Shown here one piece after another: positions 316 to 62,691 of a stretch of DNA of 64,000 nucleotides. Under the pieces are notes generated by a model. The model saw only the letters and a list, made by a program, of their open reading frames with translations, was not told where the DNA came from and searched no databases. A program made the position numbers and the translations under genes. Origin of the DNA: Platycnemis pennipes. Lineage: Eukaryota > Arthropoda > Insecta > Odonata > Platycnemididae. Each line of letters opens with the position of its first letter. The first letter of the stretch is position 1. The stretch covers positions 109,513,271 to 109,577,270 of the forward strand of contig OW121851.1 in assembly GCA_933228895.1 (NCBI GenBank), written 5' to 3'.

Positions 316-540
316 CGTCAATTGATTAAAACTGTCGCGGTCCATGTCTTCTGAGTGATGTAGTCTTTTTGGGGGTTTCTCCGCGATTACGTGGTAGTCC
401 ACCGACGTTTCCCTTCCGCTGCTGGAGGCCTCTTCAGGGTAATTAATAGACATTTCATCATCCTTCAGCAGCGGAGGGGAGACGTTGGTGGAAAACCACA
501 TAATCGCGGATAAACCCTCAAAAAAAACCACGTCACTCAG
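316..540. mobile_element. Hairpin element with ribozyme core, copy 1
   Basis: About 225 bp with two inverted arms (347-423 and 467-544, roughly 77 bp each, mostly complementary) around a 43-base loop. It is flanked by a near-perfect 13-bp direct repeat, AAGAAAAACGTTT at 303-315 and AAGAAAAACATTT at 541-553, which I read as a target-site duplication. The same element recurs at 62489-62691, including the opening AATTGATTAAAAC. On the minus strand the arm reads like the tail found downstream of the GIY-YIG domain in Penelope-like elements and carries a hammerhead core. I infer a non-autonomous PLE-dependent retroelement. The arms and repeats are seen directly; the mobilising enzyme is inferred. 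Confidence 0.7.
404..437 (-). ncRNA. Hammerhead-like ribozyme core (hairpin copy 1)
   Basis: Read on the minus strand: CTGAAGA, then an imperfect stem II (CCTCC against GGAAGG around AGCAGC), then GAAAC followed at once by GTC, the usual cleavage triplet. The three bases before CTGAAGA (ACC) pair with the bases after GTC (GGT), giving the start of stem I. Stem III is only the self-complementary ACGT, as in minimal hammerheads that work as dimers. Activity is inferred. Confidence 0.55.
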
Positions 541-599
541 AAGAAAAACATTTTAATCCTTTCCCAGGCCTCTAGAATCTCTGAATATTAAGGACTTGA

Positions 600-2590
600 A
601 AGCGTTGTTTTTTTTCTCCTGCCCACACTTTCTTCACCCACTAACTCAATACTCACAGCACTTACCAAATTTAAACCCCCCTCTTCCCATGAACCCAAGC
701 CTCTCCCCTCCAATCACCCTATTGAAATATTTTGTAACCTCCTTCTCTCGAAGATTTCCAATCCCACCTTCATCAACTCCCTTAAGCCTAAATCCAATCT
801 TTCTCCCGCTGAAATCTCAGCCCTTCATAACCTAACCTCTATTCCCAGCATTGTCATCACCCCCTCTGATAAAGGATCCACCGTTTTGGTCCTTAATTCC
901 TCCGATTACACTAATTAGGCTCTCAGACAACTTTCGAACACTTCTTCCTATAACCCTATACCCCATGATCCTAATCTACAATTCCTCAACGAAATTGACA
1001 CACTATTAAACGAGAAGGTCTCACCCAGCACGATATTTCCCTTCTCACCCCTCCCCATCCCCGCACCCCCCATGTCTACATCCAGAAATTCACAAGCCCA
1101 ATAATCCTGGCCGTCCTATAGTCTCCTCCTATTACTCACCCACCGAACGCATCTCCGCGTTTGTAGATTTTTACCTTCAACCTCTAGTCCATGGCCTCTC
1201 CTCCTACATCAAAGATACCTACCACTTCCTCGACCGCCTCAATTCCACCTTACTTCCTAATGATCAAAATAACATTAGGGCCGCCATTGACGTTACCTCT
1301 CTCTATACCTCTATTCCTCACTTGGAAGACCTCTCCTCTCTCCGCCATTTCATAAACCAACGTTCTACTATACACGCTCCTAGCACTAACTTCCTTCGTG
1401 ACCTTATGAACCTCATCCATACTCACAATTTCTTTTCCTTCAACTACCAATTCTACCTTCAGACTAGGGGCTGTGCCATGGGAAGTAGGTTTAGTCCCTC
1501 TTATTCCAACCCCTTCCTCGGCCTCCTTGAAGAATCCTTTCTATCCACATACCCCCTCAAGCCGCTCCTCTGGCTCCACTATAGTGATGATATTTTTCTC
1601 CTTTGGCCACACGACACCGATTCCCTTACCTCATACCTCGCCTCTCTCAACTCTTCCTCCTCAGTTTCCTTCACATCACATATTTCCTCTTCCAACATTA
1701 CCTTCCTTGATGTCGATATCTCCCTTTCCAATAACAAATTTCACACATCTGTTCACATCAAACCCACTAATAAACAACAATACCTCCACTATAATAGCTG
1801 CCATCCTTACTACACCAAAACATCCTTAACTTACTCCCTTTCCATTCGTGGCCACCGTATATGCAATAACCCAGACTCCCTTAACAGATTCCTCACTAAC
1901 CTACACCAGTCTCTCCTCCGAAGAGGATACCCTGAGCACCTTCTCAACGAAAAAATTTCCAATAAACCTTACTCCCCCATAGCCCCTCCTCGCAAAACCA
2001 AAGACAGCCTCTCCTTGTGCACAACCTACTTCCCTGGTATTCAGTCCCTTAAAAACATCCTCAAAGACCTATTCCCGATCCTGTCTGATAACCTTACCAC
2101 CACCAATATTTTCCCTAAATGCCCATCTCTTACCTTCAAACGTCCCCCCAACCTCTCGGGTATTCTGAGATCCACCAGACCTCTGTCCAAATCCCATCTC
2201 CCTCCCAAAACACCCCCTTCCCCCTGCAATCGCGCTATATTCAAACACTGTCCTATCCTTATCACCCAGCCTCTCCCCAAACAATTTCTCTCTTTTTCTC
2301 TTTCCTCCATGCCTTCAATTTCCTGCACCACTGAAAATACTGTCTACCTTCTACTCTGCCAATCTGTCCCTCTTTCTACATCGGCCTCTCCACCACCCCG
2401 CTATGCATTCGCATGAATGGTCATCGCTCTTCCTGCAATAATCCCTCCTTCCATTCTTATTCTCTCCGGTAGGCATACATGCCTCCTCCCACGAATCCAA
2501 CTTCAATAATTGTTTCAAGGGGGGCATACTGGCCTCTCCCTCCCACCTTCAGCGTCTCCCCTCCAACTTAAAACGGAATAATCTTTAATT
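600..2590 (+). pseudogene. Penelope-like element: RT plus GIY-YIG, decayed
   Basis: A broken reading frame recognisable as a PLE polyprotein. From about 690 to 1320 the translation includes a SDKGS block, an RPIVSS block and an SLYTSIPH block typical of PLE reverse transcriptase. A long open stretch (1322-2416) continues with TRGCAMGS, the catalytic-site equivalent YSDDIFLLW (usual Y-x-DD, with S before DD), FLDVDISL and IRGHRICNNPDSL. Near 2341 the frame shifts: VYLLLC in one frame is followed by FYIGLSTTPLCIRMNGHR in another, which is a GIY-YIG endonuclease. At least one in-frame stop (about 916) and several shifts disable it. Flanking ends were not located precisely. Confidence 0.85.
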
Positions 2591-2852
2591 TGGTTCTTCC
2601 ATGCTTTCCGCAAACCGGGAATTAACAGGGCTAATTAAAGGAACCTTCTGTCTTTCTCTCTTTTCCTCATACATTTTCTCATACCTTTTCCCTCTACACT
2701 CATCTTTACCCCTCTTACTTCTACCCTTCACTTGTTTCCTCGACCTGCCTTGCTCCCTCAGTCAGTTCTCTCCTCTCCTTCGAGAAAGGTGGTAATGGCC
2801 ACCTAAATATCCGAAAACTATCTTTGTGTCTTTTATTTATGTGCTTTTATAC

Positions 2853-3150
2853 TTGTCTGGTGGCCTAGTGGGTAGAGCACTGAGCTACTGACCGGAGGGT
2901 CCCGGTTCAAATCCCGGGCAAGAGCCTTTCTGGACATCCTCATCCTTGCGATTCGATTTTCTTCTTAGTACTTCGTAGTAAATCGCAGGTGGCCCAGGGA
3001 AAGGAACTGGCTCCCCTACCCTGAATGTGTGAATTTCACACGCCATTGGCATAGTATGGGGTGAGTTCTACTCTCACTTATCACTGTTGAATCAGTGAGT
3101 GACACCTTTGTCACGACTGTGACCAGCTTTATTGTTATTTGTATCTCACA
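2853..3150 (+). repeat. tRNA-derived SINE
   Basis: The head (2853-2930) has RNA polymerase III promoter boxes: an A box in TGGCCTAGTGGGTAGAGC and a B box in GGTTCAAATCC, spaced as in a tRNA. It does not fold as a complete tRNA and runs on into about 220 bases of non-tRNA sequence, so SINE is preferred over a tRNA gene. The 3' boundary is approximate. Confidence 0.6.
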
Positions 3151-5239: not shown

Positions 5240-5795
5240 CCGTAACATGGTGGAAACGATTCATTATAATATAAATGAACACACTTGATTTTTACACAAT
5301 TTATTTCTCCTCCACTACCCAGTCTACCCTTACCTACTCAAACGATACTCCCGATCCCGCAAAACATCTTTTGGAAAAAAGACACGCGAGTGACATCACT
5401 CCTAAAGTTCTGCATGTAGAAAGGAAAGGCCTCCGCCTGGATGTTCTAGAACAGCTAGAGATTCTGAAAACCGTGGGTTCAAAGGGTGCAATCCTTATTG
5501 ACATGTTGTAAACCTCCCGTTCACCCCTCCTAGACCACCCACTATTCAGGGATACCCACCCACCATAACGACCTAATGCGTCACGTGACGCTAAACCTTT
5601 TCCCTCCACTACCACCTCCCCTCCAACGACCCTTTGACATTTTTTACCCCCACCCCCGATCCCAACCCGCCCCTCTTCACTATTTTGTGTACATATATTT
5701 GCTGAAAAATATTTTCTGTAGTACACCTGATGATGACTTAACAGTCGAAACCCTGTAAGCGGAGGGAAAATAAATTTGTGGTAGTTCATTTGTAT
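5240..5795 (+). mobile_element. Penelope-like element, 3' end fragment
   Basis: The frame at 5275-5511 (AKHLLEKRHASDITPKVLHVE and onward to a stop) resembles the C-terminal tail of a PLE protein rather than a host gene. It is followed by C-rich untranslated sequence and, at 5727-5757, a hammerhead core with the tail PDDDLTVETL in one frame. Sequence after it (GGAGGGAAAATAAATTTG) looks like an element end. No RT domain remains. Assignment rests on the tail and the ribozyme context, so it is moderately sure. Confidence 0.55.
5727..5757 (+). ncRNA. Hammerhead-like ribozyme core in PLE tail
   Basis: CTGATGA, then T, stem II GAC / loop TTAACA / GTC, then GAAAC, loop CCT and GTA (triplet NUH satisfied). 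Stem III is a minimal AC/GT pair. Outer pairing is possible between TATTTTCT at about 5710-5717 and AGGGAAAATA at about 5763-5772, but the bases touching the core do not pair well, so stem I may be damaged. Confidence 0.6.
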
Positions 5796-5924
5796 TATAA
5801 TACTTATTACAATATAGCAAGGCGATAATCTCCAGGATTTTGGTTAAGTTGTTGCGCAGAGTTTCTTCCGGGGTCAGGTTGGCATTGTGGGTCATGATGC
5901 CACCGATTCTCACAGCGATAGCCG

Positions 5925-6165: not shown

Positions 6166-6550
6166 GTTCAGACGACCTAGACGATCTAGACAAACACACA
6201 CTAGAGTTTTTCCACACCTCTATTTCCTTCAACAGTTTGCAAATGTTTGATTTTCCGTTGCGTTCTTTGTCGTTGAAGTTAGGCTGAAAAGAAATCCTTC
6301 CGAAGTTTTGTTGCCTGAAACTTCGGTCTACTTACTAAATCTGGGGTGGGCAAGCGCATTTCACAGAATGGAGACAATAGAGTAAAATTAAGTTTTAGGT
6401 GTTCCAACTGATAATGGCTAAATCGCGACACCTAACACAGCTTAATCCTATGTCATGCCCACAACATCCTGAGGCGTGGAACATAAAAGAATGAAACTTT
6501 GTTAGGTTCACTTTATATTTAAACAAGCACGACCCGGGTTTCATAACATA

Positions 6551-8047
6551 CAGTCAAACTTGTATCTAACGAGATCCAAGGGACCAAATGCTTTTGCTCG
6601 TAATATCCATTACTCGTTATATCCGTTACGATTAGCAGCATGTACTGTCACTCACTGTCTTTCCTCTCTCACGCACACAAGCGCGCTCACACACATATAA
6701 TTCTAATGCAGAGGTGATACAATAACAAAGATTAATATAAGATGATTTAATATACAAAATGAACAATTTATTCAGTAAACTATCCATCCACTAGGAATTG
6801 GAGTTTCCTACAATGATCGAAGAATTATCCACAGTTTGTATAAAAACCAAGTAGCTGTGATTAAATCGGGACCCAGCTGTGAAGAAGCGAGAATAAGGAA
6901 AGGAGTGAGACAAGGCTGTGCACTGTCTCCCGTAATTTTTAATGTTTACATTGAGAGAGTCATCAATGAAGTCAAGGAGAAGTGTTCTGGAGTGAACATC
7001 CACGGAGAAACAATCAGCATGCTACGATTCGCTGATGACATAGCTCTCATAGCAGAGACAGAGAAGGAGCTGAATAAGATACTAACAACCATGGAAAGGA
7101 CAATGACCAGACATCAGCTGAAGATCAATAAGAAGAAAACTAAGATATTGGTGTGCAGCAGAAGAGAAGAGGCCAAAACCAACGTTAAACTAGGAAAACA
7201 GAAACTGGAAGAGGTGAAAGAGTTCTGTTACCTGGGAAGCAGAGTAACCAACGATGGACGAAGCAAGAAAGAAATAGTGAGTAGAATAGCCCAGGCAAAG
7301 AGGGCATTCTATCAAAAGAAGAATCTACTAACAGCTGGAAATACAAGCTTGGAAGTAAGGAAGCAATTCATTAAAACGTATATCTGGAGCATGTTCCTTT
7401 ATGGCAGTGAGGCATGGACGATGACAGCAGCGGAGAAGAGAAGGGTGGAAGCATTCGAAATATGGTGCTATCGACGAATGATGAAGATAAAATGGATCGA
7501 CCGAGTGACAAATGAAGAAGTTCTAAGAAGAGTGGGAGAAAAGAGAAGTCTACTGAAAACTATAAAAAGAATGCGGGACAACCTAATCGGCCATATCTTA
7601 AGACACGATGGCCTGATGAAGACAATCGTCGAGGGAAAATTGAACGGGAAAAATGGAAGAGGCAGGCCTCGTATGAGTTACATGGAGCAGATCGTAAAGG
7701 ACGTGAAAGAGAGGAACTACGTTGGTATGAAGAGGTTGGCCGATAGAAGAATCGAGTGGAGGGCTGCGTCAAACCAATCCTATGATTGTTGACCCTTGAT
7801 GATGATGATGATGAAACTATCCATGCCAAATTTACAAGAAAAAGTCCTTGGTACGACAGTACAGCCACTGCCCGTTCATTTGGACTAAAGATTTGCTCGT
7901 TATAACCGTAAGGCTCTCTAATACAGTCTCGTATTAACCGTTATATATTGATCATAAAATGCATTATTTTACAAACAACCCATCTCTCTTTCCTCGCAAT
8001 AGCCGAGATCTCGTTTTAACCGTGCTCGTTATAAATGAGTTTGACTG
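6551..8047. mobile_element. pogo/Tigger-type MITE, carrying an RTE insertion
   Basis: Ends CAGTCAAACTTGTATCTAAC and, reversed, CAGTCAAACTCATTTATAAC, flanked on both sides by TA (6549-6550, 8048-8049). These ends and the TA duplication are those of pogo/Tigger-like Tc1-mariner relatives. Without the RTE and its duplication it is about 460 bp and has no transposase. A related right end is at 46385. Confidence 0.75.
6788..7813 (+). mobile_element. RTE/BovB-like LINE, 5'-truncated, open frame
   Basis: A clean reading frame from about 6797 to 7792 encodes the C-terminal part of an RTE reverse transcriptase: KGVRQGCALSPVIFNVY, then LRFADDIALIAE with the catalytic A-DD, YLGSRVT, LYGSEAWTM, LRHDGL, and the family-typical end RRIEWRAASNQ. 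It closes with a GATGAT-type microsatellite tail. Perfect 11-bp target duplications AAACTATCCAT flank it (6777-6787, 7814-7824). The intact frame and perfect duplication suggest a young insertion. It lacks the endonuclease and first RT blocks, so it is dead on arrival. Confidence 0.92.
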
Positions 8048-8128
8048 TAGTTACATTTTTCATGCATACAATTCATACATACATTCATACATGCATGCTA
8101 TAAAGATTATGTATGCATGAAAAATCAC

Positions 8129-8161
8129 CTGATGATGTAACTATGTTATGAAACCCGGGTC
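8129..8161 (+). ncRNA. Hammerhead-like ribozyme core (hairpin copy 3)
   Basis: CTGATGA, TG, stem II TAAC / CTAT-type loop / GTTA, T, GAAAC, loop CCGG, GTC. CAC just before CTGATGA pairs with GTG just after GTC, starting stem I. ACCCGGGT is fully self-complementary and could form stem III within or between molecules. All invariant core positions are present. Cleavage is inferred. Confidence 0.7.
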
Positions 8162-8261
8162 GTGCATATTTAAATATAAAGTGAACATAACAAAGTTTCT
8201 TTCTTTTATTTTCCATTATGGAAAGGTATCACATAGTCAAGCCTGAAGATATCAGCTATAT

Positions 8262-8340
8262 CCTGAGGCGTGATTCGAACCCATGACCTTCGGCTCTTAT
8301 GGCGAGTTCATTTACTGTCTATCTTCCACGGCCGTCTTAA
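8262..8340 (-). repeat. tRNA-derived SINE head
   Basis: On the minus strand a B box (GGTTCGAATC) follows an A-box-like stretch at tRNA spacing. No complete tRNA fold is apparent, and the hairpin insertion splits the repeat at its B-box side. Confidence 0.45.
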
Positions 8341-10002: not shown

Positions 10003-10404
10003 GGTCGTTAGTGCTTCGTTAACTGTTAGCCCGACCACCTCTCTCCTTGCGGTTACGTAATATACGAATAGCCTTCTATCACGAAGAGAGTAGCAAGATT
10101 TAATATCATTCAAATCCGAAGAGATTTCCACCATCTCACCTCATCGAAACGGGCATGTTTTTTTTCTCCAAACATTTGCTTGAAAAAGCACTGGCGGGCG
10201 AGGTAAAACCATATCTAAGCATTCCCAAGGAGACGTCTCCAAATATGATTCTGGTGCTTATACAGGTATTAACTACTCAATCCCCGTAAACCCCCTCTAC
10301 TTTTACGAACGGATTTCCCAATTCCAGAGAGGAACCTCGATCATTCTACCCAGTCTTGGAAGGTCATAAAATAATGAACGTAAGCAATCAACCATCATAA
10401 TCAT
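10003..10404. other. No gene recognised
   Basis: Unassigned spacer between a hAT-type MITE and an RTE copy. Confidence 0.45.
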
Positions 10405-11850
10405 CGGTCAACAATCCTAGGATTGGTTTGATGCAGCCCTCCATTCGATTCTTCTATCGACCAACCTCTTCATATTGACGTATCTCCTCTCTTTTACATC
10501 CTTCACAACTTGCTCCAAGTATCTCGTACAAGGCCTTTTCCATTCTTCCCGTTCACTTTTCCCTCGACGATTGTATTCATCAGGCCATCGTGTCTTAAGA
10601 TGTGGCATATTAAGTTGCCCCGTATTCTTTTTAATGTTTTCAGTAGACATCTCTTCTCTCCCACTCTTCTTAAGACTTCTTTGTTTGTCACTCGATCGAT
10701 CATTTTTATCTTCATCATTCTTCGGTAGCACCACATTTCAAATGCTCCCAGCCTTGATTCCTCCGCTCCTGCTATTGTCCATGCTTTGCTGCCATATAGT
10801 ATAATGCTCCAGATGTATGTTCTAATGAAATATTTCCTCACTTCCACGCTTGTATTTCCAGCTGTAAGCAGAATCTTCTTCTGGTAAAATGCCCTTTTCG
10901 CTTGGACAATTCTACTGGCAATTTCTCTTTTACTTCGTCCATCGCTAGTAACTCGGCTTTCCAGGTAACAGAACTCTTCCACCTACTCGATTTTTTGTTT
11001 TCCTAGTTTAACATTGGTCCTGGATTCCTGTCTTCTTCTACATACCAATACCTTACCTTTCTTTTTATTGATCTTCAGATGATACTTGTCATTGTTCTTT
11101 CCATATTTCCTAGTGTATTCTTTAAATCTCCTGCTATTTCTGCCATGACTGCTATGTCATCGGCAAATCGTAGCATGCTGCTTTTTTCCCCGTGGATATT
11201 CACTCCCGGAGACTTTTCTTTGAATTCTTGGATGGCTTTCTCGATAGAGACATTGAATAATACGGGAAACAGTGCACAGCCTTGCCTCACTCCTTTCTTT
11301 ATGCTTGCTTCTGTACTGCTGGGTCCTGATTTGATTATGGCCACCTGGTTTTTATACAAGGTGTGGATAACTCTTCGGGCATTGTATGACACTCCAATTT
11401 CTTTCACATTCTTTAGCATCATGTTCCAATCCACGTTGTCAAATGCCTTCTCCAAATCTACGAATTAACAAACGTCGGTATATTCTTCTCTATAAGTAGC
11501 CTGAGGGCCAAAATCGCTTCTCTTGTGCCCCTGTTTCTTCTGAACCCGAATTGGTCCTCATCCAGGAACTCCTCAGCTTTTCGTTCTATTCTTCTATAGA
11601 TGATTCTCGTCAATATCTTCGAGGCATGTGTCATCAGGCTTATTTTACTAAAATATTCACAGTTCTCAGCCCTCTTCTTTTTGGCAATAGGGAAGATGAT
11701 GTTTTTCTCAAAGTCCGTGGGTATCTCTCCTGTAGAGTACGTGTCGCAGATGGTTTTGTAGAGCTGAGTAAATGTCTTCGCATTTTCCATAATCCTTTTT
11801 ATAAATACTAGCTTCACATCTGCTTGACCTGATATTTCCCGGATGTTTGA
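10405..11850 (-). pseudogene. RTE/BovB-like LINE, RT domain, broken
   Basis: Reads from about 11850 down to 10405 as a 5'-truncated RTE. Segments in order: DEDQFGFRRNRGTREAILAL, EKAFDNVDW, KKGVRQGCALFPVLFNV, MLRFADDIAVMAE (catalytic A-DD kept), FCYLESRVT, LYGSKAWT, LRHDGLM, RRIEWRAASNQ. The pieces fall in different frames with stops between them (near 11456-11461, 11075, 10983 and 10550), so it is non-functional. It belongs to the same lineage as 6788-7813 and 35230-36996. Confidence 0.9.
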
Positions 11851-21420: not shown

Positions 21421-21439
21421 AGGGAGAAGGGTGTATCAC

Positions 21440-22158: not shown

Positions 22159-23176
22159 GTACAAAGAATTCGAGTGTCCACCGCAGACTTCGGAAGAAGA
22201 AATTTTTCCCGACCCGTACTCCCACGGCGTGTATCACCTCTGCAGGAACGGCGAGAGACTAGACTTCGTTTGCGGCGAAGACGCACCGATCTTCGATCCG
22301 AAATCGAAGCAATGTGTCAGAAAAACGTCGAGGACAAATTATTTCGGAGACGCCCCCTTGCCTTGGTGCGCGGAGAAGGGAGAGACGGGAACAATTGATG
22401 GAACGGATTACGCGTACGAGTGCGCGGAAGAGAAGAGTCCGCACCGCGTCATCTATCCGAAACTGAGACTAAGAAAGGACGAAACGACCTCCACCTCCGA
22501 AGCTACAACGACAGAAGAGTCCACGACGACGGTCACCACGACCGAAAAAGAGTCCACGACGACAACCACAGAAGAACCGACTACCACACCTAAAGAGCAG
22601 TCGACGACCACGCCTAAGGAGCAGTCGACGACCACGCCTAAAGAGCAGTCAACGACCACGCCCAAGGAGCAGTCTACCACGACGCCTAGCGAGCAGTCGA
22701 CGACGACACCAAAAGAACAAACGACGACGGAGAAACCGTCACCTTGTACAAATGGCGTCGGTGCTTACCCCGTTCCCGGCGATTGCCGAAAGTATTACCT
22801 CTGCTACCTCCAACCGAACAGCTCCTTGAGCTACGTCGAGAAGATGTGTCGAAAGGGCTCACACTTCGACGGTTCCGCGGGAGTGTGCGTCGCTGGGGAC
22901 TGCAGCGAATACCCCTCGACGACCACCTCTGCCCCCACTCCCACCCCTGTCCACTGCGTAAACAACGGCGCACTGGAGGACACGGAGTGCTGCAAGTGCT
23001 ACTACGTCTGCTTCGACGACGGAACCGGGATGAAATACGCGCACAAGTGCTGCCGGAAGGGGTCGCACTTCGACCCCGGGAAGGCGGTTTGCGTGGCAGG
23101 GGATGAGTGCGACAACATGCAGAACTGCCCGAAAGTCGGCAATTGGTTGATCGACCCGTTGAACAAAGACATGTGA
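22159..23176 (+). CDS. Chitin-binding peritrophin-like protein, last exon
   Basis: 339 codons plus one leading base, from acceptor ATCCACAG at 22151-22158 to TGA at 23174-23176. Order: a CBM14 (type-2 chitin-binding) domain with IFPDPYSHGVYHLCRNG, VCG, IFDPKSKQCV; a Thr/Pro-rich linker (about 22480-22740) made of TTTPKEQS repeats and probably O-glycosylated; then two further Cys-rich CBM14-like units, each with CRKGSHFD and CVAGD near its end. Such proteins are secreted and bind chitin in the peritrophic matrix or cuticle. The exon is GC-rich compared with its AT-rich surroundings. Codon-level continuity with 16939-17177 (AG+G = Arg, then YKEFECPP) supports the join. Confidence 0.92.
22580..22733 (+). 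repeat. 24-bp coding tandem repeat (TTTPKEQS)
   Basis: About six units of 24 bases encoding TTTPKEQS with synonymous drift (cct aag/aaa, tcg/tca/tct). One unit reads PSEQ in place of PKEQ. The length keeps the frame, so copy number could vary between individuals without breaking the protein. Confidence 0.9.
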
Positions 23177-25498
23177 GAGATGGGCGGCGTCTGTCTCGGC
23201 AGAGTGCAAAAGCGGTCGGTGATAGGGTTGCCATCTTATTAATCTGTCATTGCCGAGCACGGAATGAACATGATATTACTTTCTCACATTGCAAAACCCA
23301 TCGTTTATTTGTTTTAAGAACTGAAAAAAGTATACTCCAAAGTGTCGCTGAACTTCACATCACAATAACACTTAAATATAGTGGTATATCGTGATTGAAG
23401 ATAACTCGTTCGGGAATCACAATCGTTAGCCGAAACGTACGCAACGTATCTTCGCTATTTTGCTCGAAAATTTTTAAAGTTTTGTATTGATTTTAGTTCC
23501 ACATACACAACAACAAATTCATCGCTCATTTTTTTAGCAACCAAAATAACATCATGCAGTAACAAAAGCTTATTGGTCGTTAGCAAAGTAAAAAAGCGAA
23601 AAAAACCTCGTTGGTCAAAGAATTAATTAGCCGAGATATCACTGTGTTTGAATAGTTGATTGTGAGCATAAGAAACACCACCTTTCATAATTCTACAAGC
23701 TTCAAAAAGATTATAGCAGAACAGTGGGATGACAGTACCAATCATTCTAGTTCATAGATTTTTAACCGTCAATTTAGATTAGAGTAGAAATTCAAAACGA
23801 TGCTATGCATCTCTTCTAGCTGTGTAACTCCACAACAGTTGTCAGTAAAAAAGATAACTTCCTAGTTATATTATGTACAAAGTTTGGTAAACTTCTGGTT
23901 AAAATTTTACTGAAAGTTTCAGTGTTGAGTGCAGAAAAAAAATAATTTGAATGGTTCGGCCGAAAACCAAATCGGTTGCAACCACAGATAGCGGCAACTC
24001 TGTACAAGGTCTCGATCTGGATGTCCTAAGTGAATGCGGAAATTATTTCGCTTCCTGATGATCGTACCAAGTGGGTGCAAGACCGCTTTCGAGTGATAAT
24101 ATGTTGGTACGAGTGAGAAACTTAAAACGGCGCACTTGAGGATGGAGTTGTGAGCACTTCGATGTTCGTCAAATATGTTTATCAAAGATCGTAAATCACT
24201 CGGTTGCTAAGTGAATCTGAACTCAATCGCGGCCACCCACAGATTTCTTATCTGTTATTATCTGACGGACGTTTCTTTGGAATACATGATAATAATCAAT
24301 TATTTTGTCCGCCAACAAAACAGGTGGGAAGGTATAATCTAATATGAAATTTTTTTTCTTTGAATGTTAATAGTTTTGTTTTCAAGTCTTTTTTGACTTA
24401 GTGGAAAAAGTACTTTTTCATCGGTCGCTTTATATTTAAAACTTATTACCGTGGTCACATATATTTTGGCCTTTTATTTAATATTCAAAGTAGGTAAAAT
24501 ATTTGGTGAATATCTATTGTGGATTGAGGTTCGTTGAAGTGAAGTATTTTTCGGCATTTAAATTTTCACCCAGTTTTTCGGTACTTTTATTATTGGCATC
24601 ATGTTCGCAATTTGTTTGCCAAAACGTTGAATGCATCCTTCATTCTTTTTTGACCAACAATCTTTTAAAAGAGATCAGACAATTCCAGGGATGGAAAATA
24701 TTTTGTGTGATCAATCCCTGAAAAATGTATATTTTGTAAATAAAATCGTTAAGTCGCAGTGGTTTTTCTTTTTATCTCATATTCGCACCTAAGGAAGATT
24801 TAATTAACTAAAGCTTTTATAAAAATATTAATTTTTTCTCATGTTTAAAACAATCTGGTTTTTGGTGAATGAGCAATCCTGTAGTGATTGAAAACTATAC
24901 TAGTATTAATGCCAGTATGGTTTTCAATCACTAAAATATAATCACTCTGATATAATCACTTAAATAATAATCGAAAAATCGACAATATGGAGCAAAGTAT
25001 TTTCAGCACATTTCCGATACTAGATACATATTGTATTATTTTTCCAAACACAAGCACGTCCGATTCGTTCGTTTGAGATACTAAAACATATTCAACAAGT
25101 TTATTGTAGATATTAGGAGAAAACTGTCAACTAAGGTAATATTCATTACCGTCGAAAATTCTGTATTGCCGTTTACTTAAGTGGCAGTACCATTACATTG
25201 TAATTTCGGTATTTGCATTATAAGTAAGGAAAATGTTTGAGCTTTATTTATTGGCAAGAGCTGGCTGTTTTAAATAGCCTCTTATTGTTAGTGCAAACCA
25301 AGCGAATTTAACACGATCCGCATTTTAATTTTGTTATACGGCGGATCGTAGGCGTTAGAAAATTGGCATTTTTTCAAAAAGATATCCATTTAAAGAATTT
25401 TATTAACAAATATAATAATATTGACGACAAATATGTATATTTCCGACATCTTCTAATATTTTCGACAAATACCTACACCACCTATACTAATATATTCA
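23177..25498. other. 3' untranslated/flanking region, no further gene
   Basis: AT-rich DNA after the stop codon. AATAAA at 24739-24744 is the first sense-strand candidate I noted for a polyadenylation signal, which would give a 3' UTR near 1.6 kb; this is weak. CTGATGATCG at 24055 lacks a downstream GAAAC and is not counted as a ribozyme. Confidence 0.35.
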
Positions 25499-26803
25499 GT
25501 ATATCAGCAAATCCATGAATTATGCACCGATACAGCGACCGGATTTTGATTTAAAAAAATCGAGCAGCACACCCTCCCAAGTTGATTCTTCCTTTAGTTT
25601 GGACCCTTAGGAAACACCTCAAGCCAATGAACCAAGAAAAACGCACTATTAGAATAGTTTTTTCAGCCTTTTTTGTCCAAAAAACGAACTACAGGGTGGA
25701 TTTAAATCTTGGTCACATTTTGGTAATTTTGAAATTGGCAATTGTTTCCATTTTTAATGCGCACACAACACTTTGAAAAGCTCGAAAAGACTTGTACAAG
25801 TACCCGTGATGATCTTGAAGACCATTGAAACCAAAAATGCGTCCAAGGATGGCCATTTTGGGCTGCGCGGGTGGGAAACGGCAATTTTCCGCCTCGATTC
25901 TAGTGAAGATCATCTACGGTAATCGTATGATTGTTTGCTGAATTCCTTCAAGCCCTCTCGTTTTCATAAAAATGTCCTTTTCTGTACTCCTTGGTGACCA
26001 AAAATGGACATACTGATCGAGAACTTTTGGTCTAGATCCTATAGGGGGCCAGCCCAGGAACTGGCACAATTTTTTCCGAATTTTTCTCGCGATCCCCTTT
26101 GTGGGTTGAAAATGGCCATTTTTGACCACTCCAGACCAAAGTGGGCCCCCTACGGACATGTTTTTGGTTTGAATCCTCTTCAAGATCATCACGCGCACTT
26201 GTACAAGTATTTTCGAGCTTTCCGAAGTGTTGCGTGCTAATTAAAAAAAATGGCCAATTTCAAAATGACCAAAATATGACCAAAATTTCCGGAACAAATC
26301 TGGCGTCCTCTTTGAAGAATTTTGAACACTCTTTGTTCCTTGAATTTTTCGTCTAGATCCCATACAACTCGAGTAAAAAAATCATGAAGACTTTGCCTGG
26401 TCCCATCCTGTTTCGGTATCCAACTTGGTTATCTAACCACTGAATTGATTTTTTCAAAGTGCAGAACTTTTAATTACAACTATTTAATGCACTTTTCTAG
26501 TACTTTTCAGTTTGTAGAAAAATTTGTTCTCAATAAAAAATCAGGTTCCAAAAAAATTGACCTAAAAAATAGTGCATTTTCCAAGTTGAATGGTCAAAAT
26601 AAAGGTCAAGGGTCGTTTTTTTGGACAAAAAAGGCTGAAAAAACTATTCTAAAAGTGCGTTTTTCTTGGTTCATTGGCTTGAGGTGTTTCCTAAGGGTCC
26701 AAACTAAAGGAAGAATCAACTTGGGAGGGTGTGCTGCTCGATTTTTTTAAAATCAAAATCCGGTCGCTGTATCGGTGCATAATTCATGGATTTGCTGATA
26801 TAC
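25499..26803. mobile_element. Long foldback element, ~190-bp inverted termini
   Basis: Arms 25499-25687 and 26614-26803 are inverted copies with only about three differences over ~190 bp. Further in, 25695-25795 pairs with about 26200-26295 with more differences, so much of the 1.3 kb is one imperfect palindrome; the right side carries about 300 extra bases. No transposase motif found. AATATTTTCGAC occurs at both sides (about 25456 and 26805) in the same orientation, but the left copy is ~30 bases from the arm, so a target duplication is not proven. Class unknown. Confidence 0.85.
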
Positions 26804-26999
26804 CAATATTTTCGACTAATATGCATACAAATTCATCTAGCACTTCAGTTCGGCATGTTAAATGTCCGTGGTTTGATTCCGGTCTCTGTCGAACTTTTTT
26901 ATGTTGTGACTTGTCCTGATTCCATCCTCCTCTCCCACTCTGAGTTCGTCCGTTTATGTGTCTCATATGTGGCATAAAGCGTCTATCCACACTTAATAG

Positions 27000-36996: not shown

Positions 36997-37879
36997 AAAT
37001 AAAATATAATTTTATTTAACAAAAAGACATAGAAACAATACTATTAAAACTAATACATTCATTTACTGTACCACATATATTGGTTTCGTAATTGCTGCTA
37101 TTATGGTGGACAACCAGCAACTAAGGTCATTTGTTATGTTAAGGATGGCTGGGTTATTTGGAAAACCTAAGTAGAAATTAATAGAATAGAGCAAGGATGA
37201 AGAGAAACCCAGCATTGGAATTAGGTAGTCTACGGTAAACTAAAGGTGCCCAAGAGCCTGTAGGTTAACATATGTATAAGTGATTGATGGAATACTGAAC
37301 TTAACACTAGAACGCCCAGAGGGGTCATTTTGACCCCATCGTGTTTTTAAATTTATTTTTTAATCTCATTTTTTAAGAGAACAGAATTTCTTCTCGTGAC
37401 TTTTAATATTTTTAATAGGTGTTCACTTGCATAAATTTTTACCTTCCTAAAATAATCCATCGAGGAGTTAAATCATATTTTACCTTGAACGCCCAAGTGG
37501 GGTCATTTTGACCCAAGCGTTCATTTGCGCGCTTTATCTCAGCTAAAGGTCCTTTTTTATTTCCATTTTTATATAATTCTGCTGCATATGTGTTCACTGC
37601 TCTCTCGTTTTATCTTTTTCATTCGGTTACTTATCTTCCAAGTTCGTATCAGTTTACAAAAAAGTTTTGTTTCCTTTCCCCATCACAACCTCACTTTTCG
37701 TTTTGCTTACATGTGGATTATTTAGTAATTACTTTGTTGATATCATCATACATCGTCAATCTCTGTGGTGTGAGGAGAATGCAATTTTGTTTACCTGTTT
37801 CGCACGAATTTATCAACTTAGTTGACTCCAAATCTAATTATTTCTCTTCGGATGACGAGTGAAGAATAAAACTCGTTCT

Positions 37880-38077
37880 TTTATTGGAAAAGAAAAACCA
37901 CTTTGCACATTCCACACAAAGGTTTTATTGGTTTCTCTCATAGTTTAGACAACATATATCATTATCAAAATCGATAATGACATATATTGAAGAAACTAAC
38001 AAAACCTTTGTGTGGAATGTAAAAAGTGGTTTTTCTTTTCTAATCATGTGGTTCCACAAAGTAAAGCCTCAAACTTT
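37880..38077. mobile_element. Hairpin element, copy 4 (decayed ribozyme tails)
   Basis: Arms 37887-37966 and 37973-38040 fold over each other, the left arm having about 12 extra bases; the tip is AAAATC. It is flanked by 11-bp direct repeats AAACTCGTTCT at 37869-37879 and 38078-38088. Each arm, read outward, has GATAATGA, about 12 bases, then GAAAC (right arm) or TAAAC (left arm), which looks like a mutated hammerhead core. It sits inside the piggyBac-like element, so it came later. Confidence 0.7.
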
Positions 38078-38087
38078 AAACTCGTTC

Positions 38088-38411
38088 TCACAGTGACAGC
38101 AAGTGAAGTTCGTGTATTTCTTGTCCATTGTTCGTGGCTTCGCGGGATGAATTTGTGATCGGTATTTTGAAGATGGCTGTGATTAAAAATTTATCAAAGA
38201 ACAGCATAATGTTCTGGTGACATTCTTGTTGAGCTGCATAAGATTCAATAAGATGAGTCAATGGTGGAGAGTGTTCATTTGACAAATCCAACGGCAAGCT
38301 GACATTTGAAACTTGTGAACAATAAACAGAATCCTCAGAATGTGACGATAAGTACCCATTTGATGAACTCAGTAGAGACACTAGGAAGGGTGGATCTAAA
38401 AGTAAGCTCAT
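38088..38411 (-). other. Unidentified minus-strand open frame
   Basis: 107 codons without a stop (from MSLLLDPPFLVSLLSS to HELHLLSL). Ser-rich N-terminal part, no motif recognised. Lies between the hairpin and the RTE copy inside the piggyBac-like element. May be a chance frame or captured sequence. Confidence 0.2.
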
Positions 38412-46945: not shown

Positions 46946-47849
46946 ATTACCTAATATCTGACGCATTGGACAAAGGAACAAGTTAGTTATGTTTAACTTT
47001 ATGAACCCTGTTGGCATGAATACACATTTAAAGGTATATTCATGAATAATGAATATACCTTTGCGTTGTGTCGCAGTAGTGCATATATTTCAGGAGAAAA
47101 AAAAAATAGTTTCATCACGATGTTGATTAAGAATACTCGTTCATACGATATTTGATATTACAAAGTGTTGATTTTTCTTGTCCTGTTGACTTCCGAATTT
47201 TGAGTTTCTACAGTATAAACATGGGTCAATGAAGTGAGGGAAAACATTTTTAATCGGTCACTTAATTAGAGATGGGCAATTATAAAAAAATAATCGATAT
47301 TTTGCTTTTATTAATCAATACATCAATTAATCGAGTCCATTATGACAAAATAAAAATCAAACTCCCAAGGTTATGGTCCCCCCATAAATAAAGTAAAATA
47401 ATTTGTTTTACATTTTATAGGGATAATGTTATCATGAGTACAAATTGTAAAATCTATCTAAAATTTCTTAATTCAATTTAAATTATTTAAATTTTGGACA
47501 ATAGCCAAATGTTTACAGGAACTGAAGCTAAAAATTGTAATTTTGATAAGCGGTTATTGGTAAGGCGGCTTTTCAAGTCAGACTGAATTCCCATCTGTAC
47601 ACTGCCTGTGGTTTCCCAGAAAGATCTAAGAACCAATCATTGACCTTCTTAAATGCTCATGACAAAGTAATCTTTATTTTTTAATAGTGTTAAGGAAAGT
47701 GGAAATCTTATCCTCTTTCTTAGACTTTATCTGGACACTTTCAATCAACAATCTTCACTGGTAAATCACGTCAATGGGTCAGTAATTGTGAGTGTGCTTC
47801 ATGTAATTGATAATAATGGATACAATATAAAAGATGGAACTATGATTGT

Positions 47850-49133
47850 CATGAAGGTTTCTCGGGTTCTCCACTGGGTTAATTCGTCCATATCCGCCGA
47901 CGTTTCGATTCCCGACTCGGCAATCGTCTTCAGGGTTTCTGAATGCCGTACGCAAAAATTGTCCACCTTATATACCCTTTTCCTGGGGTCAGGTGTCTCC
48001 TGATTGGTCCATCGACCAACCTTCAGAAGGGCGCCTCATGATTGGTCGAGAGTTTCCCCTTTCCTCTTGTATGCATTTGAGGATCGGTCTCCATGTGTTG
48101 CTTAGCTGGAAGCCTGTGTCCCTGTTCAAATTCTTCTTTTTGAGGCGGATTTCAATGGCCTCCTTGACAATCCGATCCCAATAGCCGTGTGATCAGCAAA
48201 GACGTTTTGTCTCATCCCACTTAATGGTGTGATCACGGCTAACGCTGTGTTCCGCGATGGCTGACTTTTCCAATTGCCCCAACCTAAGGTGCCTTCTGTG
48301 CTCCTTCATCCTGGTCTCAATAGTGCGACCTGTTTCTCCGACGTACACCACGCCACACTCGCACGGTATCTGGTAAACTCCAGGAGTCTTGAGGCCAATT
48401 GGGTCCTACGCGTTGGCTAGTTGGTGTCTTAACTTAGCCGGTGGTTCATGAGTTGTGGCGATGTTGAACCTTCGGAGTATTCTGGATATTTTTCCCGATA
48501 CCATGGAGACGTATGGCAGGCAGGCTGTTGCGATAGGTTTTTTGTCCGTGTCCCGTGTCCGTCCTTTTCGTGGCTCCATGGTCCTTTTCAGGGCACGGGA
48601 GATTTGCCGCTCACTGTATCCGTTTTGAAGAAAGGTCTTCTTTAGCCGTTGAAATTCTCCTGGTAAGCTCTCCTCATCGGAAATGGACTTGGCCCTGTGT
48701 ATAAGGGAGGGTAGAACGGCGAAGCGTTGGGAAGGGTGGTGGTGGCTGCTGCCGTTAAGGTAGAGGTCTGTATGGGTCGGTTTGCGATAGACTCTGTGGC
48801 CCAAACTTCCGTCTTTTGTTCTATGGATTAGGATGTCTAAGAACGGGAGCTTGCTGTTGTTTTCCATCTCCATTGTGAAACGGATATTCGGATGCTGAAT
48901 ATTCATGTGCTCTAGGAAGGAATTCAAGGCGTGGGATCCATGTGGCCAAATGATGAAAGTATCGTCTATGTATCTGAAAAAGCACTTTGGCCGCAGTGGA
49001 GCCGAGTTGAGTGCCTTTTCTTCAAAGTCCCCCATGAAAAAGTTCACGATGGCCGGTGAAAGTGGCGACCCCATGGTGACGCCATTCGCCTGCTCATAGA
49101 ATTTCCCGTCGTAAAGGAAATATGTGGACGTTA
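47850..49133 (-). pseudogene. Penelope-like element, RT end plus GIY-YIG
   Basis: Minus strand from 49133. RT: YFLYDGKFYEQANG, VTMGSPLSPAIVNFF, CFFRYIDDTFIIWPHG (catalytic Y-x-DD), LPFLDILI, GHRVYRKPTHTDLYLNGSSH, EFQRLKKTFLQNGYS. After a TAG at 48406-48408 the GIY-YIG domain follows (GVYQIPCECGVVYVGETGRT, then RMKEHRRHLR, KSAIAEH), and a second stop interrupts ETKRLC/SHGYWDR near 48190. The tail ends in a hammerhead core (47899-47933). The first RT blocks are missing. A different PLE lineage from 600-2590. It lies in the SLC33A1 intron in sense with the gene. Confidence 0.92.
47899..47933 (-). ncRNA. Hammerhead-like ribozyme core, PLE left copy
   Basis: Minus strand: CTGAAGA, C, stem II GATT / loop GCCGAGTCGGG / AATC, GAAAC, GTC. 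Stem II pairs perfectly over four bases. Stem III is the palindromic ACGT, which favours a dimeric form. The bases before CTGAAGA (ACC) pair two of three with GGC after GTC. Confidence 0.65.
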
Positions 49134-49137
49134 AGAC

Positions 49138-49560
49138 ATGATGAAAAAGCTTGACAGTATTGCTTTCGAATCTTCTTTCCCGGACGAGGCAAAACGTCTT
49201 TGCCGATCACACGGCTATTGGGATCGGATTGTCAAGGAGGCCATTGAAATCCTCCTCAAAAAGAAGAATTTGAACAGGGACACAGGCTTCCAGCTAAGCA
49301 ACACATGGAGACTGATCCTCAAATGCATACAAGAGGAAAGGGGAAACTCTCGACCAATCATGAGGCGCCCTTCTGAAGGTTGGTTGATGGACCAATCAGG
49401 AGACACCTGACCCCAGGAGAAGGGTATATAAGGAGGACAATTTTTGCAGACGGCATTCAGAAGCCCTGAAGACGATTGCCGAGTCGGGAATTGAAACGTC
49501 GGCAGACATGGACGAATTAACCCAGTGGAGGACCCGAGAAACCTTCACGCAGCAGATACG
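49138..49560 (+). mobile_element. Inverted partial PLE copy (pLTR-like)
   Basis: The plus strand repeats the PLE 3' end of 47850-48216 in opposite orientation: KRLCRSHGYWDRIVKEAIEI, then FQLSNTWRLILKCIQEERGN, through a hammerhead core and on to about 49548. Here SHGYWDR is uninterrupted, unlike the left copy. The arrangement gives a PLE body bounded by inverted 3' ends, a known PLE habit. Confidence 0.85.
49466..49500 (+). ncRNA. Hammerhead-like ribozyme core, PLE right copy
   Basis: CTGAAGA, C, stem II GATT / loop / AATT (one G-T wobble), GAAAC, GTC. GCC before the core pairs with GGC after GTC. Mirror partner of 47899-47933. Confidence 0.65.
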
Positions 49561-50282
49561 CCGGGAAAGCACCAGATCTTTCTTTATGATTGTCATAGTA
49601 CCCAGAAAGCCACATAGATTCAGTTAGGATGGACACATCCATAGGCCTCTCCTTGATTTGAACTAGCCCGTGGTTATAGCCCAATGCTTCTACCCACAGG
49701 GTTACGATAATGAAACCCACACAAACTGCATGAAATATGTTCCAATTAGGTTAGCAAGGATATCATTGAGGATCATTGCACCATATGGTTTAGAAACTGG
49801 GACTGTGGGCAAAGAAGATGAGAAAAGATTTGAGGCATTTGAGATGCAGGCTAAAGAAGAACTGAGAAAGTAAGACAAAATAAAGGAGGACATATGAGGA
49901 AGCAATATGCATGGACAAGAGGAAAGAACACTGCAGGAGAAATTAAGTGGCAAGAAAAGGAAAAAGACCCAATAATTATACATGATAATATAAAGGCAAG
50001 ACTTTTCATGTGGAATGAAGCAAAATAGGTAACATACTCACATGAAGAAAGGCATGGAGAGTTAAGAAATGTTCAAACAAGGCAACAAGAAGTAGATATG
50101 GTCTTATCATGACAAATGTAACAACATTAATTTTCCACATTGATTATAAAAGAGGGAGCCTATAGGTACACTGACATAAAAGAAATTGAATTTTCATACT
50201 CATTGAATATCACTCTAAAATGAGGATATTATCACAGGAAATTACCTCCATCAACACTCAGCCAAAGTAGTCAGACACTTAC
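49561..50282. other. SLC33A1 intron remainder
   Basis: A/G-rich stretch from about 49850 to 50050 with no recognised element. Confidence 0.4.
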
Positions 50283-59221: not shown

Positions 59222-60581
59222 TGATTTACCAGAGTCACCATCCCTTGATTCCAATGCAGAGGAGACAATGCTCTCTGCTTCCTCAAGTTTCTCTGTTGTA
59301 ATGGACAGCCCTTCACGTGACTTGAGCCCTAATTACCCTTTGCCGAAGAGGAAGAACTCTGGGCCATCACAATTGACATTGAAAGGTTTCATGGAGAAAA
59401 AGGGAAAATTCAAGCCAGGTGATCAACGAAGTAAAGAAATCACAAGATTAATTGCTGAGATGGTGTGCCTGGATAATCAGCCCCTGTCAGTTGTAGAGAA
59501 TAAAGGTTTTCAGGCTCTGGTTCTCCATTTAGAGCCAAGATACACAATGGCATCTAGGAAGCATATTGGAAATAAATTAATTCCAGAAATGTATGATGAA
59601 ACAAAAACAAAAGTCGGGGCTATTCTCAGCAAAGCAGAGAGTATTTCCATTACAACAGATATGTGGACATCAACGAGTAATGATGATTACCTCAGTATAA
59701 CTGCTCACTTCATTGATGCTGACTTTAAATCTCACCATTTGTGTTTAGAGGTAGTGCCTTTTCCTGAAGTGTCACACACTGGTCAAAACTTGAGGGTATT
59801 TATTTGTGAAACTCTTAAAAGCTGGGACATAGAAGACAAAATATTTTTGATTGTGCGTGATAATGGGAGGAACATATGCTGTGCTCTTAATGAGTCTGAT
59901 TTCAGCCATATTCCATGTCTTGCTCACACACTGCAGTTGGTGGTCAAAGATGGACTTCTTAATAATAAGATGGTGAGTGGTTTGATTGCTACATGTCGGC
60001 GTCTTGTAGGTCATTTTAAACACTCTTCCAAAGCTACCAAAGTTTTAAAAAAAGCCCAAGTGACTGTGGGAGTTAAGCAACACAGGCTACTGCAGGATGA
60101 GCCCACCAGATGGAACTCCTCATTGCATATGCTTACAAGGTTGCTTGAACAAAAGGCAGCAGTTACACTGGCAGCGACATATCTTACTGTTCCTGTTGAA
60201 TTAACTTCTCATCATTGGGAGCAGATTGTAAGTGTTGCAGGCATTGCAAACATTTTTAATCAAGCAACGTTTGCCGTGAGTTCAGCTGATGTAACCATAT
60301 CAGAAGTTATCCCCATCATTAACAGTGCAATGCATGAATTGAAGAAACCTGCACCAGTCTCTTCTGGCTTACAAGGTGTGAAAAACGACTTATTGACTGC
60401 ACTGAAGTGCCGATACCCATCAGTGGAAAGTAATGAATTCTACGCTGTTGCAACTCTCCTTGATCCAAGGTTCAAAGGAAGTGTTTTCCAAAGTAAGGAG
60501 CTTTTGCAACAAGCCAAAACCCAGCTAATTCAGGAGGTTAAAAGCATAAGTGGCACATATCCTGAGGAAAGGAGAGAACTG
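59222..60581 (+). CDS. hAT transposase exon 2 (catalytic core)
   Basis: 453 codons after acceptor TATTTCTAG. A Ser-rich linker is followed by the RNase H-like domain: ITTDMWTS (first Asp), IFLIVRDNGRNICCAL (where second-Asp TDNA-type is usual), CLAHTLQLVVKDGL (hAT C-x-x-H), DEPTRWNSSLHMLTRL, and FYAVATLLDPRFKG. It closes with donor CTG/GTAAGT at 60581/60582 in phase 0. The frame is uninterrupted over the whole exon, so the insertion is fairly young. Similar length and order to ZBED1-type transposases. Confidence 0.93.
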
Positions 60582-60679
60582 GTAAGTAGGCTAGCGTAAG
60601 AAATTTATCATTTGATTGCTTCTTATTTCATGGTTTATGTAGACATGTTAAAATCTTTCCATTTTCTTTCTTATCATAG

Positions 60680-61031: not shown

Positions 61032-61279
61032 AGTTTTTATATGCTTGCAGTTGGAGTGTTTAATTCTATAGTGTGGAAAATTAATATTAGAATTCAAAAT
61101 AAATACAAGCTTATGTAAAAATGACAAGGCAACATTTAGATTCTTGATAAAATTTACGATTCAAGGTAAAGTTAAGATTTGGATTCGAAATAAGATTCGA
61201 GATTCGAGGGTGAATTTAAGATTCGGATTCGAGATTCGGATTCGAGAAAAACTGGATTCGACCCATCTCTAATTCCCAC

Positions 61280-62247
61280 TTATCGTGGCTAACGCGTCTC
61301 GTCCTCCCTCCGTGACACTGGGCTGGAGTGCGCCTTCCTGTATGATATTCTCGCCGACGCCTCCTCAATCCCGCTCCTTACTCTGCTGAAGTCCTTTTCT
61401 CGGGCACCTGCCGTAGGATCAGCATTACTTCACTGATGGGTCCTCTTCAAGGGTTCCCGGGCCTATTCTCCTGACGCATACGTCTCGTTCACCTTCACTT
61501 CCGACTCTCCCCGTGCCTTTTCACTACCGTTCCGTGTCGCGTCCTCCTGACTATATCCGTTCATGGTCGCGTCACTACTCACGCTCTTGTTGTTTCCATT
61601 CTTGCCCATTCTTACGCTCGTTTTTCCTAACCTATTATTTGGCCGAGTGTACTGCCAACCCCCAGCGTTTAACTGATAGCCCCTATTGTTGTCCGCGCCG
61701 CGGGTACTGCCAACCCGTGGCGTTTATCCTGAAGGTTTACAACGTGTTTATAAAACAATAGGTCTGACACAGTTGAAAGATATTAATAGTATATGTAAAT
61801 ATTAAATGTAGGAGAGCATAATCTCAACCTTCAACTACTAAAATAGTGATACAGACATTATAAATATAGGCCTTAATGTTGAAAGAAACTGCCTCCATTG
61901 TTGACACTGCATAAAACTGATCATTAACATATGCATAAGGAAACTCCAACTTACAATTGGATGGTAGAGTAATCAAAGACGGTTTACTAATAAATTCTAT
62001 GTATCTATTAAAAATCCAATATGAATATTTTAAAAGTTACAAAATATAATGTTTGATTTGCATGATAGGCAGCAGAGCAAAAGAAAAAAATAAAAAATAC
62101 CACAAATTTTTACACACAATAAACACTTTTCTCGGTTTCCAAATAAAATTGAATCAGCATGAGCAAATACTGTTTAGCTATGCTGGCACTTTTAACAAAT
62201 CGAATTGTTTCAGGGGTAATAAATACAGTTAAAATGTGTACACTCAC
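61280..62247. other. SLC33A1 intron, GC-richer then AT-rich
   Basis: 61290-61760 is GC-richer than its surroundings without a recognised product; 61760-62247 is AT-rich. No element end found. Confidence 0.4.
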
Positions 62248-62365
62248 CTGGTGGAATGAGTAGCTAGCAAGTAGAAGGATATAATAATATGAGGGAACAG
62301 ATCCATGGTTTATGAGTGATGGGGTGATCCATACAATAAATGCTGCAATAAGACCAAAGGCCAAT
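62248..62365 (-). CDS. SLC33A1: Acetyl-CoA transporter, internal exon
   Basis: One leading base plus 39 codons, acceptor CTGTTTTTAG (ending 62366) and donor CAG/GTGAGT (62247-62242). Encodes LAFGLIAAFIVWITPSLINH, a short loop and YYYILLLASYSFHQ: two membrane helices around the luminal turn typical of SLC33A1, just before the VTVYSM stretch of the next exon. The preceding exon must lie beyond 64000. Together the three exons give about 174 residues of the C-terminal third of a protein that is about 550 residues in vertebrates. Confidence 0.92.
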
Positions 62366-62488
62366 CTAAAAACAGAATAAAAAAAGCATCAACATGTGCA
62401 CGACTAATAATGTTCACAACAAACCAAATTGAAATAGCAAATAATTTCAAAATTATAAATTAGGTATTATTTAATCAAAAGGTTAGTC

Positions 62489-62691
62489 AATTGATTAAAA
62501 CTTTCGCAGTCCGTGTCTGAGTGATGGGATTTTTTTTGGGGGTTTCTACCCGATTACGTGGTTGTCCACCAACATTTCCCCTCCGCCGCTGGAGGGGAAT
62601 GCTGCTCATTCTACCCTGATGAGGCCTCCAGCAGCAGAGGGGAAACGGTGACCAACCACGTAATCTCAGAGAAACCCCCCAAAAAAACCAC
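62489..62691. mobile_element. Hairpin element with ribozyme core, copy 2
   Basis: About 203 bp, between perfect 14-bp direct repeats TCAAAAGGTTAGTC at 62475-62488 and 62692-62705. Arms about 62515-62592 and 62631-62690 are inverted. It opens with AATTGATTAAAACT as in copy 1 and shares its arm sequence. The right arm contains a hammerhead-like core. Inserted in an intron upstream of exon 62248-62365. Confidence 0.85.
62616..62650 (+). ncRNA. Hammerhead-like core, cleavage triplet lost
   Basis: CTGATGA, GG, stem II CCTC / loop CAGCAGCA / GAGG (perfect), G, GAAAC, then GGTG where copy 1 has GTCGGTGG. Two bases (TC of the triplet) are missing, so this copy should not cleave. ACC before the core still pairs with GGT. 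Confidence 0.55.

Follow-up and report, generated by a model that had tools for sequence, protein, structure and literature searches.

Four hairpin insertions (el1 to el4) lie in a 64-kb stretch of the Platycnemis pennipes genome (contig OW121851.1, hereafter the window), and the locus raises the question of what has made them. Based on the present analysis, they would be, with a probability somewhat above even, insertions of Penelope-like elements (PLEs) that were cut short in both arms near the hammerhead motif, through priming on two strands and head-to-head joining. El1 to el4 are probably not a new element family; the observation itself is sound, and its explanation is largely known already. 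The possible novelties are that the insertions are body-less and that they follow a rule of one tail per insertion.

The insertion mechanism of PLEs is unsettled. The hairpins hold both ends of an insertion event within about 200 bp, and many such hairpins in the genome would show whether both strands are primed, which start sites are used and how the complementary DNAs (cDNAs) are joined. They would also show the fate of a tandem-dimer hammerhead once its partner copy is inverted.

Hairpin insertions, direct repeats and one-sided tails

An earlier note on this DNA had described el1 to el4 as inverted-repeat hairpins, each flanked by a short direct repeat (13 bp with one mismatch in el1, and 13, 11 and 14 bp in el2, el3 and el4), and this was borne out for all four (Table 1). 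When each insertion was aligned to its own reverse complement, the foldback was visible in 4/4; a PLE body was present in none of them (0/4). The direct repeats were compared with 600 random flank pairs from the window, el1 being scored by its one-mismatch length and el2 to el4 by exact length. Equally good repeats occurred in six of the random pairs for el1, one for el2, three for el3 and one for el4, and the exact 9-bp core of the el1 repeat is weaker when taken alone (19/600). The el4 hairpin folded at -96 kcal/mol (z = -8.57), with none of 200 shuffles equally stable, and el1, el2 and el3 were folded without a shuffle control. A match of el3 to a plant microRNA model (36.1 bits vs. a cut-off of 100) was put down to its long hairpin and rejected.

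El2 owes its length to nested insertions only, with an element bounded by terminal inverted repeats in its centre. These repeats measure 25 nt, TA included, and we take the element to be pogo/mariner-like. The reverse transcriptase (RT) fragment of a long interspersed nuclear element (LINE) that it holds spans 6793-7807 and has 82% identity to 10393-11402, on the opposite strand.

The window also contains a PLE copy with the layout of the hairpins, namely inverted arms, a direct repeat and a one-sided overhang. Its arms are unequal (about 1.3 kb vs. 366 nt plus tail), each of them has a hammerhead-like core, and the copy is flanked on both sides by TATGATTGTCAT. The RT remnant matched RVT_1 at 1.4e-4, below the Pfam cut-off, and the endonuclease matched GIY-YIG (PF01541) with 23.3 bits vs. 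a cut-off of 22.6 (E 8e-5). Comparison of the PLE piece with the PDB returned five matches at E 0.12-0.78, 4/5 of them to other reverse transcriptases. On the PLE sense strand the core is followed by ATG GAC GAA TTA ACC (MDELTQ...), in a frame open to the tail end, and the PLE open reading frame (ORF) would therefore start just downstream of the core. An ATG with a frame open to the tail end was likewise present in el1, el2 and el3 and absent in el4, such short frames easily arising by chance; el3 also has an earlier ATG followed by stops. Downstream of el1 lies another ORF (1322-2416), a 249-aa piece of which matched RVT_1 at 1.8e-7, with no Pfam family at 0.001 for the whole ORF; it presumably encodes a second PLE-like RT.

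In 5/5 elements (el1 to el4 and the PLE), one arm ends no more than 4 nt from the direct repeat and the other runs on for 33-44 nt, with overhangs of 35 nt in el1, 44 in el2, 33 in el3, 34 in el4 and 37 in the PLE. The tail played no part in the choice of the five. If the two arms were independent, exactly one tail in each of five elements would have a probability of at most 0.03, in what is a small sample. El1 and el4 have their ends at nearly corresponding positions, with a distance of 4 nt between the tail ends (el1 runs past TTTTAATCAATT) and of 9 nt between the short-arm ends, in keeping with a PLE origin.

As a control, we have scored 24 inverted-repeat rows of the window, made up of 22 rows for 23 of the 24 detected pairs (I6 merged into I2, I21 omitted) and of two further pairs. 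A row was counted when it had a direct repeat of at least 11 bp exact, or of 13 bp with one mismatch, one arm end within 4 nt of it and an overhang of 32-44 nt. Six of the 24 rows fitted, these being el1 to el4, the PLE and 25467-26804. The el4 overhang was scored as 41/4 in the control script, which took a looser arm end, and was refined to 34 nt by self-alignment. Rows I14 and I22 had long direct repeats inside a simple CGGTTC-type repeat, without the tail pattern.

The row 25467-26804 has a 12-bp direct repeat, a 32-nt one-sided overhang and an ATG followed by stops, and no hammerhead core was found in it. It is a possible sixth member of the PLE-type hairpins, and had been overlooked by the earlier note, as had the PLE foldback. 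With its flanks (25455-26816) it forms a foldback insertion whose arms run from 25499 and to 26803, the main arm pair being 97% alike.

Hammerhead-like cores and resemblance between arms

The earlier note had seen a CTGANGA...GAAAC core in three of the hairpins, and decayed cores in both arms of the fourth. The three cores are present, as CTGAAGA..GAAAC in el1 and CTGATGA..GAAAC in el2 and el4; the el3 arms hold GAAAC and no recognisable CTGANGA, so that decayed cores could not be demonstrated there. A regular expression for the core (CTGANGA-N6..40-GAAAC) matched eight times in the window vs. 1.4 +/- 1.1 times in 40 random sequences, which here and below were first-order Markov simulations. 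We have also used a descriptor requiring, besides the core, 4 bp or more in stem II, with at most two unpaired bases on one side and at most one on the other, helix III being omitted. It matched five times (el2, el4, both PLE arms and a site at 5727) vs. 0.047 expected from 300 Markov sequences, an excess that is optimistic, as the descriptor was written after the sequences had been seen. A second set of conditions (core, GTH site, 3-bp stem I and 3 bp or more in stem II) had three matches vs. 0.013, namely the cores of el1 (with a 3-bp stem II), el2 and the PLE inverted arm. A relaxed descriptor returned only the cores at 8129 and 49466.

The minimal PLE-type hammerhead consists of CUGANGA, stem II, GAAA, a UH cleavage site and stem I. 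All of these consensus elements are present in the cores of el2 and of the PLE inverted arm, and in el1 with a 3-bp stem II; extra unpaired bases flank stem II, and the single arms do not fold into the whole hammerhead. El4 has the core and stem II without an intact site. The cleavage-site context is ACGTC in el1 and the PLE, and the palindrome-bearing ACCCGGGTC in el2; in our reading, these contexts would suit a stem III formed between two copies. Inspection of el1 and el4 by eye for a hammerhead in one copy, closed by a long helix III, was dropped, as stem I would not pair. The core at 5727-5751 has a 4-bp stem II and no inverted partner among the detected repeats of the window; the sequence upstream of it resembles, we assume, the end of a PLE coding region.

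A stretch that includes the CTGATGA strand is missing from one arm, and kept in the other, of el2 (11 nt, left arm) and of el4 (14 nt, as 10+2+2). The loss is less clean in el1, whose right arm has neither the tail nor the CTGANGA strand, and el3 has a 12-nt gap (11+1) at the corresponding place. The arm regions concerned are 440-465 in el1, 6540-8140 in el2, 37940-37990 in el3 and 62596-62616 in el4.

The arms were aligned pairwise against 500 shuffles (21 pairs compared). For the tail arm of el1 and the PLE arm, none of the 500 shuffles was equally good, the shared core contributing part of the score. This alignment and the common layout of the window PLE support the earlier note in linking the hairpins to PLEs and their minimal hammerhead motifs. 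El2 and el3 were equalled by 3/500 shuffles, as one of 21 pairs, and el3 and the 5727 site likewise by 3/500; the resemblance of el2 to el3 is weak and suggestive only. Judged from these alignments, there is more than one sequence family among the hairpins. Arm identity was 84% within el1, 81% within el4 and 79-87% between the two. The core is kept in the tail arm of el1 and lost from its short arm, and el4 shows the opposite combination; therefore, neither is a copy of the other. A covariance model of the arms was abandoned at the alignment stage, one member having been misplaced, and a search of viral and prokaryote contigs gave no matches, as expected for an animal element.

Two further ORFs lie elsewhere in the window. 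The one at 22229-23176 has cysteine-rich blocks and a TTTPKEQS repeat, and we take it for a look-alike of chitin-binding peritrophin-type proteins. The other (59268-60599, 443 aa) matched no Pfam family at 0.001 and is presumably a hAT/ZBED-type transposase look-alike.

Table 1. Positions of the hairpin insertions, the Penelope-like element and their flanking repeats within the window
Feature	Position	Strand	Partner	Description
Left target-site duplication, el1	303-315		541-553	13 bp, 1 mismatch
El1 hairpin insertion	316-540			left arm sense on minus strand: 35-nt tail 316-350, full core 407-437 (-)
Right target-site duplication, el1	541-553			
Left target-site duplication, el2	6466-6478		8260-8272	13 bp
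El2 hairpin insertion	6479-8259			centre broken by nested insertions; right arm: core 8129-8154 (+), 44-nt tail 8216-8259
Element nested in el2	6551-8047			TA-flanked, terminal inverted repeats; holds LINE RT fragment (ORF 6836-7792)
Right target-site duplication, el2	8260-8272			
Left target-site duplication, el3	37869-37879		38078-38088	11 bp
El3 hairpin insertion	37880-38077			right arm: 33-nt tail 38045-38077; no demonstrable hammerhead core
Right target-site duplication, el3	38078-38088			
Left target-site duplication, PLE	47841-47852		49585-49596	12 bp
PLE copy, 5'-truncated	47853-49584	minus		unequal foldback; long arm with RT piece and GIY-YIG
Hammerhead-like core, PLE long arm	47902-47933	-		stem I 2 of 3 bp, stem II 4 bp, GTC site
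PLE inverted arm	49182-49547			366 nt, 96% match to stretch by PLE left end
Hammerhead-like core, PLE inverted arm	49466-49497	+		stem I 3 bp, stem II 4 bp, GTC site
PLE tail	49548-49584			37 nt
Right target-site duplication, PLE	49585-49596			
Left target-site duplication, el4	62475-62488		62692-62705	14 bp
El4 hairpin insertion	62489-62691			left arm: 34-nt tail 62489-62522, without CTGATGA strand; right arm: core 62616-62646 (+), no tail
Right target-site duplication, el4	62692-62705			

Origin of the hairpins

In the route that we infer, the GIY-YIG endonuclease of a PLE would cut both target strands 11-14 bp apart. Both freed ends would prime reverse transcription of the sense PLE transcript, which would begin at the tail start site on one side and 33-44 nt further in on the other. 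The resulting antisense cDNAs would grow inwards and then be joined head to head. They probably anneal through a small palindrome that lies just upstream of the ribozyme motif, and fill-in of the staggered cut would make the direct repeats. As cDNAs of the same polarity could anneal only at a palindrome, such a route fits the centres of el2, el3 and el4, which are near-palindromic in the self reverse-complement alignments, and the unequal outer ends of the arms. The hammerhead cores would be inherited from the PLE terminal repeat. Once the arms pair with each other, the GAAAC strand should be masked and the ribozyme inactive, and the hairpins would therefore be dead-end by-products, not a self-spreading foldback element.

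We have compared the folds of the whole hairpin and of the single arm for el1, el2 and el4. The GAAAC strand was unpaired at 0.0-0.26 in the whole-hairpin folds vs. 0.40-0.71 in the single arm. The hairpins are expected to be inactive as ribozymes, on these predicted folds, because the GAAAC strand is mostly paired in them and because none of the single-arm stretches examined takes a whole hammerhead as its minimum-energy fold.

Several results weigh against this origin. The CTGANGA strand was not more hidden in the hairpins (0.59-0.60 unpaired vs. 0.38-0.59 in single arms), the whole hammerhead was the minimum-energy fold in 0/6 single-arm stretches, and a stem II of at least 4 bp formed in only two of the six (PLE left and el2). 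El3 showed no core with either the regular expression, run over the window, or the descriptor. El4 resembled the PLE arm only weakly (8/500 shuffles equally good), el2 and el3 stood at shuffle level (256/500 and 377/500), and the window yielded no PLE body for the el1/el4, el2 or el3 lineages. The arm identities within and between el1 and el4 decide nothing on the number of templates, and there is no good explanation for why one arm lacks the CTGANGA strand. In vitro, the two strands showed no difference in RT start site (PMC11167929). Rfam gave no hammerhead match in the window, at the gathering score or up to E 10, nor in the right arm of the PLE, the right arm of el2 and the 5727 site, each searched as a short stretch. 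On matches to a hammerhead model, which the earlier note had made decisive for its proposal, the outcome thus goes against it. Reviews describe PLE hammerheads as having no helix III and as possibly cleaving in dimeric form (PMC6155905, PMC7761336; both in part). The missing helix III may explain the Rfam misses, the search having included no known PLE hammerhead as a positive control.

The near-palindromic centres of el2, el3 and el4 also count against joined cDNAs, such centres being read in part of PMC3846280 as the result of self-priming on an antisense template. Applied here, the hairpins would still derive from PLEs, and the antisense template or the first cDNA would fold at the palindrome and copy itself into the second arm. 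The model and the palindromes at inverted junctions of the A. vaga Penelope elements speak for this explanation (PMC3846280, in part), which we consider possible and rather unlikely. A copied arm should, however, end with its template or enter the flank, whereas in 5/5 elements the arm ends lie 33-44 nt apart beside intact direct repeats, and the PLE arms measure about 1.3 kb and 366 nt plus tail. Self-priming thus accounts for the centres but leaves the unequal outer ends unexplained.

The earlier note had proposed something close to a second rival, a stand-alone, non-autonomous family of foldbacks that carries hammerhead cores and is copied whole by the enzymes of PLEs. El1 and el4 are indeed members of a single sequence family, each having one arm that lacks the CTGANGA strand, but the core-less arm is the one without the tail in el1 and the one with it in el4, and their centres differ; el2 and el3 could not be aligned to them above shuffles, and the PLE has the same layout. 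We therefore regard a separate family as improbable. Cut-and-paste miniature inverted-repeat transposable elements (MITEs) or foldback DNA transposons, with hammerhead-like strings that are chance or irrelevant, are the least probable source. Short hairpins with direct repeats would fit MITEs too, as would the core-less el3, the want of an Rfam hammerhead and of a PLE body for the hairpin lineages in the window. Against them stand direct repeats that vary from 11 to 14 bp, an arm overhanging by 33-44 nt, and the five cores with a 4-bp stem II where 0.05 were expected, two of them in el2 and el4 and the rest in the PLE arms and at 5727.

A wider proposal can be made, which we put forward only tentatively. 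Each such PLE insertion would be built asymmetrically, one target strand being extended from the tail site and the other from the inner site, exactly one each. The body-less hairpins would be the simplest record of this, and might account for many of the "dispersed" minimal hammerheads of animal genomes.

Comparison with known systems

Animal non-LTR (long terminal repeat) retrozymes are likewise small elements with type I hammerheads, and differ in that their repeats, of about 150-450 bp, are direct and in tandem and their hammerheads are canonical (PMC7229834, in part); PLEs have been named as their likely mobilisers (PMC7761336, in part). Membership of el1 to el4 among the retrozymes was rejected, as the hairpin copies are inverted and match no Rfam hammerhead model. 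Closer to the present cores are the minimal type I hammerheads of PLEs, which also lack helix III and occur in tandem, with possible cleavage as dimers (PMC7761336, PMC6155905; both in part). The copies are inverted here, so that a tandem dimer cannot form in the same way.

The architecture, which the earlier note had held to be undescribed, has a precedent in the Pen families of A. vaga. These have inverted pseudo-long terminal repeats (pLTRs), mostly head to head, one of which bears a 31-bp tail. Any target-site duplications measure 8-10 bp, pLTR and tail hold ORF codons, and palindromes lie at the junctions (PMC3846280, in part). The hairpins share the inverted repeats, the target-site duplication, the one-sided tail and the junction palindromes, and may share the ORF start in pLTR or tail. 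They differ in their longer direct repeats (11-14 bp) and in what lies between the arms: the A. vaga elements carry a body there (ORF or captured sequence), whereas el1, el3 and el4 have no insert and that of el2 is a later transposon. A body-less hairpin is not described in the part of PMC3846280 used here; our literature search was limited, and we do not claim that the form is unpublished.

The purified protein of a PLE cleaves and extends both strands, and ribozyme mutants still insert (PMC11167929). The element studied in that work, PAc (Poseidon, Anolis carolinensis), has hammerhead stems I and II near the ORF start, a tail delimited by two start sites, and cleavage and extension of both strands, all as proposed here. 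Unlike the hairpins, it is a tandem PLE assayed in vitro, with start sites equal between strands, and section 3 of the paper describes no inverted products. Reverse transcription begins internally, at sites in the early part of the ORF, and the optional tail of 30-40 bp is the stretch between two start sites (PMC11167929). With el2, at 44 nt, exceeding the published range, the overhangs of 33-44 nt in 5/5 elements resemble this PLE tail.

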